DNA of 64,000 nucleotides from the NCBI RefSeq assembly GCF_004362895.1, contig NZ_SNXI01000001.1:62001-126000 (forward strand), written 5' to 3'. Both the position numbers and the translations under genes were made by a program. How positions within the stretch are numbered: position 1 is the stretch's first letter; each line of letters starts with the position of its first letter. This document shows, one piece after another, positions 61,476-64,000 of this stretch. The stretch is from Idiomarina aquatica. GTDB taxonomy: Bacteria > Pseudomonadota > Gammaproteobacteria > Enterobacterales > Alteromonadaceae. A model generated the notes under the pieces. The model was not told the origin of the DNA. It made no database searches and worked only from the letters and a program-made list of their open reading frames with translations.

Positions 61476-61546
61476 ATACGGTGAAATGACAGGTTTTCGA
61501 TCGATTAATGATAAAAAACCAAACCATAAAAAATAGAGATAAGTTA

Positions 61547-62314
61547 ATGAATCTAAAAGTTGCTACGGTTATCAGTGCCGGATTATTACTAAGCGCGGCC
61601 TCTGTTATGGCTTCTGATGCGCAGGTCGACAAAGCGAAGTCAGCCATTCAAAAGCTCAAAAGGCAAAGTGCGGTTGAATTTGCTTACCAGCGTCATTCCG
61701 ACTTTGGCGAGCGTACCATGCGTGAACGCTATCGGCCTTTGCCGGACAGTCATGGCTGGACGCTTCTGTCAGAAAATGATGAGAAACCAAGCGCGCAACG
61801 GTTAACTGAATATCAGCAGATGAAGTATGACGAGTGGCAGTCCGGGCAACAAACACAGGATACCGAGGATCAGGATCAGCAAAGTATCAAGTTGTCACTG
61901 AGCGATATGATCCAGGCAGATACACTGGTTTATGTGGGCGAGCAAGAGTGGCGGCAACAGCAGGTGCTGGCTTATACGTTTACGCCGTATCTAGATAAGT
62001 TCAGCGAGCATGACGATAAGTTACAGGGTAATCTTTATTTAAGTCCGAATAGCCACTCGCCCGCAGGGCTGAGTATCACACTTAAGGAGTCTTTTTCGCC
62101 GGCGATGTCTGTGACCCTGGAAAACTTCGAAATGCAGATTGAGCTAATGCCCATCACTGACAAGGGTACAACTTTTTATGTGCCCAAACAGACAGAAGAG
62201 AAAATGGCGGGCAGCTACCTTTATTTTAAGGATTTTAGCAACCACACCATTCGCGAATATACCGATTATTCGGTATTGGATACCGCATCAGTAAGTCGCG
62301 TCAGCGCCAACTGA
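61547..62314 (+). CDS. Exported protein of unknown family
   Basis: A 255-residue protein with a Sec signal peptide (MNLKVATVISAGLLLSAASV, cleavage near VMASDA). A hydrophilic helical region is followed by a Gln/Asp/Glu-rich stretch (about 95-120). A beta-rich C-terminal part follows (LVYVGEQEWRQQQVLAYTFT, MSVTLENFEMQIEL). No Cys residues are present. I do not recognise it. The ATG at 61547 is preferred over 61508 because AGAGATAAG precedes it. Its 3' end overlaps the convergent ArsA-like gene by 49 bases. Confidence 0.8.
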   Translation: MNLKVATVISAGLLLSAASVMASDAQVDKAKSAIQKLKRQSAVEFAYQRHSDFGERTMRERYRPLPDSHGWTLLSENDEKPSAQRLTEYQQMKYDEWQSGQQTQDTEDQDQQSIKLSLSDMIQADTLVYVGEQEWRQQQVLAYTFTPYLDKFSEHDDKLQGNLYLSPNSHSPAGLSITLKESFSPAMSVTLENFEMQIELMPITDKGTTFYVPKQTEEKMAGSYLYFKDFSNHTIREYTDYSVLDTASVSRVSAN

Positions 62315-63297
62315 GCAGCAAACGACTCGAGCGCTTCCAGGCCCTGCGGATCCTCAGTAAGTAAGGGTAATCGATGATTAGGCCAGTGCTTAAAGCGCTG
62401 GTCTATTTCCTCAAGATAGCTTTGCTGTTGAACCCGCCGTTTAGCCAAAAATTCACCGTCAGCATCGTCGGGTAAAATGCGGTTAATAATGACCCCGGCA
62501 ATGGGTAACTTCTCTTTGGCGAGAGCCTCTAATGCACGCTCGGTTTCCTGTATGGGCAGGCGTTCCGGCGTCAAAACAAACAAGATGCCGGTGTAATCCG
62601 GGTCTTGCAACAGCCGTCGCGTGCGTTGGAATAGCCGCTGACGCTCTAATAATTGCTCGGTTATAGCTTTAGTGCGATCGGTCATTCCTTCAGTGGCATG
62701 CTCATCAGGATTCGCCATTGGGTTAGCAACATCTTTACCGGCTTTAGGGGCAAGGTGTTTTAATACCCCCTCAAATTCCTCCGAGCGGTGTTGCGAACGT
62801 AACATACCCTGGGTCCAGGCTGCCATTGCTTCAGGCAACGTCAGCAAACGTAAGGTATGACCGGTTGGCGCGGTGTCAAAAATCAGTAAGTCATAGTCCC
62901 GTTCAGCCTGTTCAATGATCTGGCAAATCCGCTCCAGCAAGGCGGCTTCCTGCGCCCCCGGCGATTGCTGAGACAGTCGCATTTGCCGTTCAATTTCGGG
63001 AAATAACTCCGGCTTTGTAAACCGCTTCATTTGCTGAGTTACGCGTTGAATATGCGTTTTTACTTCTTTATCGGGGTCGATTTCCAGTGCATCAACACCG
63101 TCTTTTATCGTCGTTATGTTATCGCCAATGTTAGTACCAAACGCATCGGCCAAGCTGTGCGCAGGGTCAGTCGACACGATCAGCACACGTTTGCCCTGGC
63201 GCGCAGCTAAAATAGCTAATGCAGATGATACGGTGGTTTTGCCAACACCACCCTTGCCGCCGACAAGCAGCACTTTTCGATCAAGAGGTTGTGTCAT
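62266..63297 (-). CDS. ArsA/GET3-family ATPase
   Basis: A 343-residue single-domain SIMIBI ATPase with the deviant Walker A GGKGGVGKTTVSSALA, STDPAHSLADAFG and IFDTAPTGHTLRLL. It has only one Cys (ERICQ), so it lacks both the arsenite-site cysteines of plasmid ArsA and the CxxC zinc pair of Get3. No arsenic genes are nearby. It is the third gene of cstA, the CC-terminal protein and this ATPase, 29 bases after the small gene. A chaperone or metal-delivery role linked to CstA is inferred from context. Confidence 0.85.
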   Translation of the reverse strand: MTQPLDRKVLLVGGKGGVGKTTVSSALAILAARQGKRVLIVSTDPAHSLADAFGTNIGDNITTIKDGVDALEIDPDKEVKTHIQRVTQQMKRFTKPELFPEIERQMRLSQQSPGAQEAALLERICQIIEQAERDYDLLIFDTAPTGHTLRLLTLPEAMAAWTQGMLRSQHRSEEFEGVLKHLAPKAGKDVANPMANPDEHATEGMTDRTKAITEQLLERQRLFQRTRRLLQDPDYTGILFVLTPERLPIQETERALEALAKEKLPIAGVIINRILPDDADGEFLAKRRVQQQSYLEEIDQRFKHWPNHRLPLLTEDPQGLEALESFAAQLALTRLTDAVSNTE

Positions 63298-63326
63298 TGC
63301 TGATGTCCGTTAGTTTGCCTACTGCA

Positions 63327-63599
63327 TTAGCAGCAGCGGAAGTGATCAAGCGGGGAATGTTCCATGCCCATACGTTGATGCCATTCGTGAAAGCGTTCCA
63401 ACATCAGGGGTTGTAATTCGAGCGTGTAGTAAGCGGCCGGATTCGGCACGCCCATCATTTCGGAGAACACCAGTAACATGAACAAGTCATCCTCATCGCG
63501 CTTAGCTCGTGCAATCGCAGAGCGATAGGGCGCATTGTAAAACTCATTCATCAATTCGCTTGCACGACCAAACCAATGTCGAATCGAATGAATGTTCAT
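63327..63599 (-). CDS. Small CC-terminal protein (cory-CC-star type) beside CstA
   Basis: A 90-residue soluble protein ending in Cys-Cys-stop (DHFRCC). The N-terminal helix is IHSIRHWFGRASELMNEFYN, followed by an acidic stretch RAKRDEDDLFMLLVFSEMMG. The start at 63599 has GAGGAG seven bases upstream; an ATG five codons earlier overlaps that site. It matches what I recall as the cory-CC-star family near CstA and ArsA genes. E. coli YbdD and YjiX, also next to CstA-type transporters, likewise end in CC but look otherwise unrelated. Its function is unknown. Confidence 0.8.
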   Translation of the reverse strand: MNIHSIRHWFGRASELMNEFYNAPYRSAIARAKRDEDDLFMLLVFSEMMGVPNPAAYYTLELQPLMLERFHEWHQRMGMEHSPLDHFRCC

Positions 63600-63623
63600 G
63601 TTACGGCTCCTCATATTTTAAGC

Positions 63624-64000
63624 CTAACCAGCGGCTTTATTTTCTTTACTGACTTTAGATAGCGTAGCGGTCGCTTCCAGAATAATCCAGATAGCGGCGA
63701 TAAGTACCACGATATCCAAGAAGAATAAGAAATACTTCTCTTGCTCATAAAAGCCTTGCAGCTGAATAACCAGTGCAAAAACCGTCATGATCAGCAAGAA
63801 AATTAGTGGTAACAGAGTAACGTACATTGGGCGCCCCAAACGTACCAGCATTACCGTAATAACCATTAATGTCAGGCCTGCTAACAGCTGGTTAGTGGTA
63901 CCGAACAGCGGCCAAATTTGTAAGCCGCCTGAACCATCTGCACCACCAGCACCAAAGGCCAATAATAGACAGCTACCGACAGCTAACAAGGTTGCAACCG
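63624..64000 (-). CDS. cstA: CstA-type peptide/pyruvate transporter (5' part off window)
   Basis: Only the C-terminal 125 or so codons are visible; the gene continues beyond the right edge. Seen are the last membrane helices with FGAGGADGSGGLQIWPLFGT and TNQLLAGLTLMVITVMLVRL, typical of the CstA family. A C-terminal tail ends SKENKAAG. CstA-type carriers import peptides or pyruvate. It is first of a likely three-gene unit with the CC-terminal protein (24-base gap) and the ArsA-like ATPase. Confidence 0.92.
   Translation of the reverse strand, partial: VATLLAVGSCLLLAFGAGGADGSGGLQIWPLFGTTNQLLAGLTLMVITVMLVRLGRPMYVTLLPLIFLLIMTVFALVIQLQGFYEQEKYFLFFLDIVVLIAAIWIILEATATLSKVSKENKAAG

Follow-up and report, generated by a model that had tools for sequence, protein, structure and literature searches.

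What is an ArsA-like ATPase doing behind the gene for a CstA-family transporter, and what ties it to the small protein encoded between them? The question is raised by the distal end of a 64,000-nucleotide stretch of the Idiomarina aquatica genome (contig NZ_SNXI01000001.1, positions 62,001 to 126,000), the whole of which is called the window below. Here cstA, a gene for a 90-residue protein ending in two cysteines and an ATPase gene follow one another on the minus strand. An earlier note on this DNA had read the three as an operon for the assembly or metallation of the transporter, one case of a recurring pattern that uses interchangeable nucleoside triphosphatases (NTPases). We find that the small protein, referred to here as Cory, and the ATPase are the constant unit, and that CstA and the Cys-Cys tail are variable partners. 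The genes of the locus are the following.

63624..64000, minus strand: 3' end of cstA, with its stop at 63624; 124 of the 557 amino acids (aa) of the genomic frame lie inside the window.
Continuing to genome position C1:127297 (L002 5298): full extent of cstA, the full frame being L002 3625-5298; short CstA type.
63327..63599, minus strand: cory-CC-star small protein, 90 aa, ending ...HFRCC; predicted to fold as three helices with a loose tail.
62266..63297, minus strand: single-domain Get3/ArsA-type ATPase, 343 aa.

The window's open reading frames bear out the layout described earlier: three genes on one strand with spacings of 24 and 29 bases, a Cys-Cys end on the small protein and only one cysteine in the ATPase. 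These spacings take 63599 as the start of the small gene. A longer frame of 95 aa, from 63614, is the alternative; the start at 63599 is favoured by relatives that align from there and by a GAGGAG just 5' of that ATG. PF02554 matches the 124-aa CstA fragment with 57 bits and the genome at C1:126254-127294 with 377 bits, and the C-terminus of this CstA, read in the full genome frame, lacks a Cys-Cys of its own. A convergent plus-strand frame (61508-62314, a 268-aa protein) shares its last 49 bases, 62266-62314, with the 3' end of the ATPase gene.

The order of the three genes is more than chance. Cory was flanked by cstA as the next gene upstream and by the ATPase as the next gene downstream at all 26 distinct places, the window's own genome among them, and the trio was present in all 19 genomes of the window's genus in that sample. 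A scan of named genomes returned at least 555 Cory relatives, the best 80 of which were kept, so that they lean to close relatives; they come from Gammaproteobacteria, Betaproteobacteria and Acidobacteria. Among these best 80 of at least 555, every protein ended in Cys-Cys (58 RCC, 21 KCC and 1 SCC), the ATPase was next downstream at all 80 loci, and cstA lay upstream at 79, at one of them (L149) across a 1.3-kb gap. The exception (L152) is on a contig that begins 138 bases ahead of the Cory gene and leaves the upstream side unreadable. The median gap from the Cory stop to the chosen ATPase start codon was 13 bases. Clustering of the frames over the same 80 loci returned other recurrent neighbours that were only clade-limited, at most 23 loci. 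The operon-like unit proposed earlier therefore stands, the ATPase gene being conserved beside cstA in relatives.

Six plasmid records also match Cory, and the three examined, from Cytobacillus, Paracoccus and Pseudochrobactrum, are all annotated in the order cstA, cory-CC-star, ArsA family ATPase; in Cytobacillus one additional small gene separates cstA from Cory. About 1.6 kb past its ATPase gene, the Cytobacillus plasmid (L218 7840-10258) is annotated with a metal-sensitive regulator, TusA, a DsrE-like protein and an MBL-fold hydrolase, a set resembling a persulfide-response operon; ahpCF lies upstream of the trio in Pseudochrobactrum. At the Natronospirillum operosum locus (L132 1740-3491 and 4915-6618), another cstA frame comes after the ATPase gene, so that the pair has a CstA gene on either side.

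Two wider samples, each a single even draw, comprised 299 genomes of Pseudomonadota and 199 of the Acidobacteriota phylum. At E 0.001, TIGR00345 (GET3/ArsA/TRC40) was weakly matched in 297 of the 299 Pseudomonadota genomes; such weak matches are MinD-like and other P-loop proteins, and only the 17 genomes with a match above the cut-off were compared. NF041419, the family model of Cory, was found in 6 of the 299. Among the 17 genomes, single-P-loop ATPases occurred in exactly the six that hold Cory. Ten of the other 11 had two P-loops in one frame, the classical ArsA layout, and one (G184) was cut by a contig end. A Cory-like match was found in 21 of the 199 Acidobacteriota-phylum genomes, above the cut-off in seven, and an ArsA-type ATPase adjoined the Cory-like gene in all 21 (in G404, on a second contig). 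The layouts were as follows.

3 genomes: CstA, Cory with Cys-Cys, ATPase.
4 genomes (L192-L195): Cory with Cys-Cys and ATPase, CstA not found within 1.5 kb.
1 genome (G409): P1B zinc/cadmium-type pump, Cory with Cys-Cys, ATPase.
8 genomes (G404 on two contigs): CstA, two tandem Cory-like genes lacking Cys-Cys, at least one ATPase frame.
5 genomes: other forms lacking Cys-Cys, with CstA in four.

CstA was not seen within 1.5 kb of the pair in six of the 21 genomes, in one of which the pair stands behind the P1B pump. Cory of L192-L195 ends in PCC, and upstream of it in L192 lie, by eye, a gene for a DUF5916 protein and one resembling cytochrome c. The G409 locus (L267 0-7056) encodes an ArsR-family regulator, an HMA-bearing P1B ATPase, Cory, the ATPase and a 109-aa Cys-bearing protein, followed further downstream by what appear by eye to be efflux-pump proteins of the outer-membrane and fusion types. 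The tandem loci (L197-L199 and L201-L205) have ATPase frames with KGGLGKT and, mostly, a second with KGGVGKT, and are possibly a heterodimeric version. Conversely, three Pseudomonadota genomes (G015, G276 and G288) hold a short CstA 61-62% identical to that of the window, with neither Cory nor an above-cut-off ATPase. Since the pair is kept without CstA and a related short CstA occurs without the pair, the ATPase goes with Cory and not with CstA.

Cory belongs to a family that is already named: the window's protein matches NCBIfam NF041419 (CC_star_Cory, "cory-CC-star") with 143 bits against a cut-off of 80, residues 12-90 aligning to profile positions 2-80. No function for cory-CC-star was found in the literature searched, nor any paper joining CstA with ArsA or YjiX with BtsT, although other wording or further papers could exist. 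C89 and C90 are invariant in the Cory alignments and are preceded by an invariant His71, Trp73 and His74. The AlphaFold2 model (mean pLDDT 77, pTM 0.53) has helices at 3-21, 26-49 and 63-76 and a tail, residues 77-90, with no predicted secondary structure. A fold search with this small three-helix model, which carries little information, returned nothing at E 0.001 or better. No solved structure was related by sequence to Cory, YbdD or CstA, the weak matches, with E of about 0.1 to 1, being taken as chance. The relatives without Cys-Cys score below the NF041419 cut-off, and not all members above it are neighbours of CstA. Searched against plasmids, the P1B-linked Cory and one Cory-like protein lacking Cys-Cys gave no match. 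A below-cut-off NF041419 match occurs in Haloferax volcanii, a control genome; Cory-like proteins may extend to Archaea.

The ATPase of the pair is Get3-like and not of the arsenite type. It matches TIGR00345 with 280 bits against a cut-off of 135, its frame (347 aa) holds one P-loop, and the two-domain ArsA model TIGR04291 scores 151 bits against a cut-off of 650. Gly114, invariant in 45 linked ATPases, aligns with both Cys113 and Cys422 of E. coli ArsA, which we take to be the arsenite-binding cysteines. By eye, neither an arsB nor an arsD gene was seen among the frames of its own locus (L002). The earlier view that the context supports no arsenic function fits both the single domain and the missing arsenite cysteines. 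A tree of 56 rows split the Cory-linked ATPases, including those linked to Cory-like proteins without Cys-Cys, from both halves of classical ArsA with support of 100/99, under a long-branch warning. Switch I reads DPAHS, as in Get3, and the closest solved folds are Get3/TRC40. The ATPase motifs were invariant in the 45 linked ATPases, so hydrolysis is likely used. The zinc-binding CXXC of Get3 is absent, CEFC of 3zq6 aligning to GEFL. Over the 80 loci, none of the 67 fully read linked ATPases had a CXXC and 34 had no cysteine at all; in no column of the ATPase alignment did Cys exceed 20% of the rows.

The earlier note had set Cory beside two small proteins of E. coli, YbdD and YjiX. Its facts on E. 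coli proved right: btsT, yjiX and yjiA are adjacent, and YjiX and YbdD are Cys-Cys-ending, both in RCC. No NTPase gene lies alongside E. coli cstA-ybdD. YbdD and YjiX neighbourhoods were examined at 30 loci fetched of the 53 matches listed. The protein ended in Cys-Cys at 29 of the 30, and motifs of COG0523 were found within 1.5 kb downstream at 11 (three of these by a GCVCC motif alone); an ArsA-type P-loop was near none of the 30. The idea of interchangeable NTPases is therefore partly right. An NTPase does recur, as a COG0523 protein at those 11 loci and as the ATPase at every readable Cory locus, but no swap was seen. The two small proteins differ in their relation to an NTPase, which is optional for YbdD and constant for Cory.

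The notion that Cory and YbdD are one kind of small protein found no support, as no sequence homology could be detected between them. On inspection the two had looked akin (GxP[DN]...Y, RCC ends), but the likeness failed profile comparison with both shallow and broad alignments. The hhalign score of Cory against YbdD was 13.3 (E 0.075), with a maximum of 19.9 among 60 shuffles, and that of a broad Cory profile was 13.2, with a maximum of 15.5 among 40 shuffles; remote kinship is possible. PF04328, the YbdD model, was not matched by the window's Cory (no Pfam match at E 1) nor anywhere in its genome (E 0.001). Within the Pseudomonadota sample PF04328 was found in 50 genomes and CstA in 156, and all YbdD genomes but one (G125) also had CstA. 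No genome held both Cory and YbdD (6 and 50 of 299), an absence that is not significant with about one overlap expected.

The Cys-Cys end itself turned up on further carriers. Thirteen genomes had a long CstA, defined by a PF02554 score above 640 bits (two N-terminal fragments from the same genus as others being counted in), and no PF04328 match; 11 of their CstA ends were readable, two (G097 and G153) being cut at contig ends. Ten of the 11 ended in RCC on CstA itself, after varied residues, and the one that was tested against Pfam was a full CstA. These ten fall in two families (f36 and f40) and may stem from one event. The eleventh, in G114, has no Cys-Cys end and is followed by a 52-aa frame (L272 597-755) ending in GCC, which matched no Pfam or NCBIfam model and may be a further Cys-Cys carrier or a much diverged YbdD. 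No Cys-Cys end was found on the four readable sister CstA proteins in YbdD genomes, on 29 other long CstA tails or on the 80 motif-found CstA frames of the Cory loci. Given this end on the unrelated-looking Cory and on CstA proteins lacking a small partner, the last two residues appear to be the part that matters. It is possible, if doubtful, that the Cys-Cys tail is portable, with at least four carriers that are not detectably related (YbdD, Cory, the CstA C-terminus and the orphan 52-residue frame), and that the carrier Cory has a dedicated Get3-like ATPase to service it, a novel role for the Get3 fold that recurs beside another pump.

The explanation that we favour, tentatively and at rather less than an even chance, is that Cory is a thiol-tailed accessory subunit of the short CstA, serviced by its dedicated Get3-like ATPase. 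Cory would be a small cytosolic subunit docking on the short-type CstA, and its loose Cys-Cys tail would be the working end, placing a reactive dithiol where the transporter faces the cytosol, as YbdD and YjiX may do for the long CstA. The ATPase would be Cory's own partner, its ATP-driven cycle between open and closed dimers serving to bind, load or deliver Cory or to reset the tail. On this account CstA, Cory and the ATPase would touch physically, the tail would serve as a centre of redox or thiol chemistry, the ATPase would act on Cory rather than on CstA, and the substrate would presumably be pyruvate. The E. coli precedent comes from PMC5847655, which gives pyruvate uptake, relative to wild type, as 20% for a ybdD deletion, 13% for a cstA deletion and 25% for the double deletion, and describes YbdD as of unknown function. 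A selenocysteine follows Cys as the last residue of the YbdD family in some Campylobacterales, and its finders read this as a hint of redox activity (PMC4607533). The selenocysteine form is listed in two reviews as KCU-star, NF033934 (PMC9312934, PMC13188914). The KCU-star model is matched by E. coli YjiX right up to its last position, though below the cut-off (62 vs 85 bits).

Several observations weigh against this explanation. The exclusive bond between Cory and a single-domain ATPase holds only above the cut-off, because G114, which has no Cory match, holds a diverged single-domain Get3-like frame (L237) with 67 bits. The Cys-Cys tail is absent in 13 of the 21 Acidobacteriota-phylum genomes with a Cory-like match and so is not needed for the role of the pair there. 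A short CstA occurs with no adjoining Cys-Cys-ending frame in three genomes of the window's family and at nine loci in other families of the phylum (L100-L108), the CstA paralogues of G222, G089, G199 and G258 likewise have no such neighbour, and one YbdD (the PF04328 protein of G178, L057 about 1459-1695) ends in CPC. As Cory and YbdD are not detectably homologous, any function carried over from YbdD is by analogy only. In a growth test on 3-fluoropyruvate, according to PMC5847655, the ybdD deletion (0.61) had a weaker effect than the cstA deletion (0.96). Our confidence is held where it is because the relatives without Cys-Cys and the loci without CstA show that the role of the pair is wider than CstA.

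Four other explanations were weighed. A metallation module, as the earlier note had suggested, would have the Cys-Cys tail hold a soft metal, loaded by the ATPase (or by a COG0523 GTPase in the case of YbdD), that ends in the transporter. A vicinal Cys pair is able to chelate metal, His71, Trp73 and His74 stand invariant ahead of the Cory tail, the pair with its Cys-Cys intact lies behind a zinc/cadmium-type P1B pump in G409, and COG0523 motifs were near 11 of 30 YbdD loci. These points are circumstantial, and the paucity of cysteine in the linked ATPases described above, together with the absence of COG0523 motifs at the other 19 YbdD loci, makes metallation unlikely. The selenocysteine at the YbdD tail (PMC4607533) favours redox chemistry, and it fits a reactive thiol at least as well as a metal site.

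Slightly more unlikely is an energising role like that of ArsA for ArsB, in which the ATPase, by way of Cory, would make CstA an ATP-driven pump or gate it. The ATPase does belong to the ArsA fold family, and the genes run in the order transporter, small protein, ATPase. Against this, the pair also occurs behind a P-type pump, which is itself driven by ATP, and at loci without CstA nearby, CstA proteins sharing 61-62% identity with that of the window do without the ATPase, and uptake by E. coli CstA depends on a proton gradient (PMC7730263).

An equally slim chance is given to the tail being a device of redox sensing or regulation, with no role in assembly and with the ATPase merely a scaffold. 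The loose tail predicted for Cory would suit a sensor, as would the selenocysteine variant of the YbdD family (PMC4607533), and ahpCF upstream in Pseudochrobactrum and the persulfide-type genes downstream in Cytobacillus point the same way. The ATPase motifs, invariant in the 45 linked ATPases, speak for hydrolysis rather than for a scaffold, and no neighbour beyond the trio recurred outside related genera over the 80 loci.

Least likely of the four is bacterial Get3-type targeting, by which the ATPase would deliver Cory or CstA to the membrane: the DPAHS switch I and the nearest solved folds are those of Get3/TRC40, but GEFL replaces CXXC (which some Get3 proteins also lack, according to PMC10248533), and the stretch at the position of the TRC40 insert (residues 183-206, average 24% AILMFVW, matched by position only and modelled with low confidence) is hydrophilic. 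Neither candidate client is tail-anchored by sequence, CstA being a many-span protein and the predicted Cory lacking a hydrophobic C-terminal helix.

Through its link with the ATPase, Cory becomes a candidate client of a Get3-type protein in bacteria, one that neither belongs to an arsenite pump nor acts as a conventional tail-anchor factor. The same link suggests that Cory and its Get3-like ATPase form an unstudied transporter-servicing pair.

The systems nearest to this locus each share a part of it. Like the Cory locus, CstA-YbdD and BtsT-YjiX-YjiA of E. coli have a CstA-family transporter followed by a small Cys-Cys-ending protein, with an NTPase as the third member in the case of BtsT. 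YbdD and YjiX differ from Cory in being, by these tests, a separate sequence family, in having the long CstA (about 700 aa) as partner and in keeping company with a COG0523 NTPase where one is present. The ATPases BagA and BagB of mycobacteria (Rv3679/Rv3680, 6bs3) are more distant, the window's ATPase falling far under the cut-offs of both (85 vs 521 bits for BagB, 75 vs 400 for BagA). Classical ArsA has two P-loop domains, whereas the ATPase here has one, with Gly114 at the arsenite-Cys positions. The closest likeness is to Get3/TRC40, represented by the archaeal 3zq6 and 3ug7: the window's ATPase resembles these in TIGR00345 score, P-loop and fold, and differs from them in its GEFL for CXXC, in the hydrophilic stretch at the presumed insert position and in the linkage of its gene to Cory.

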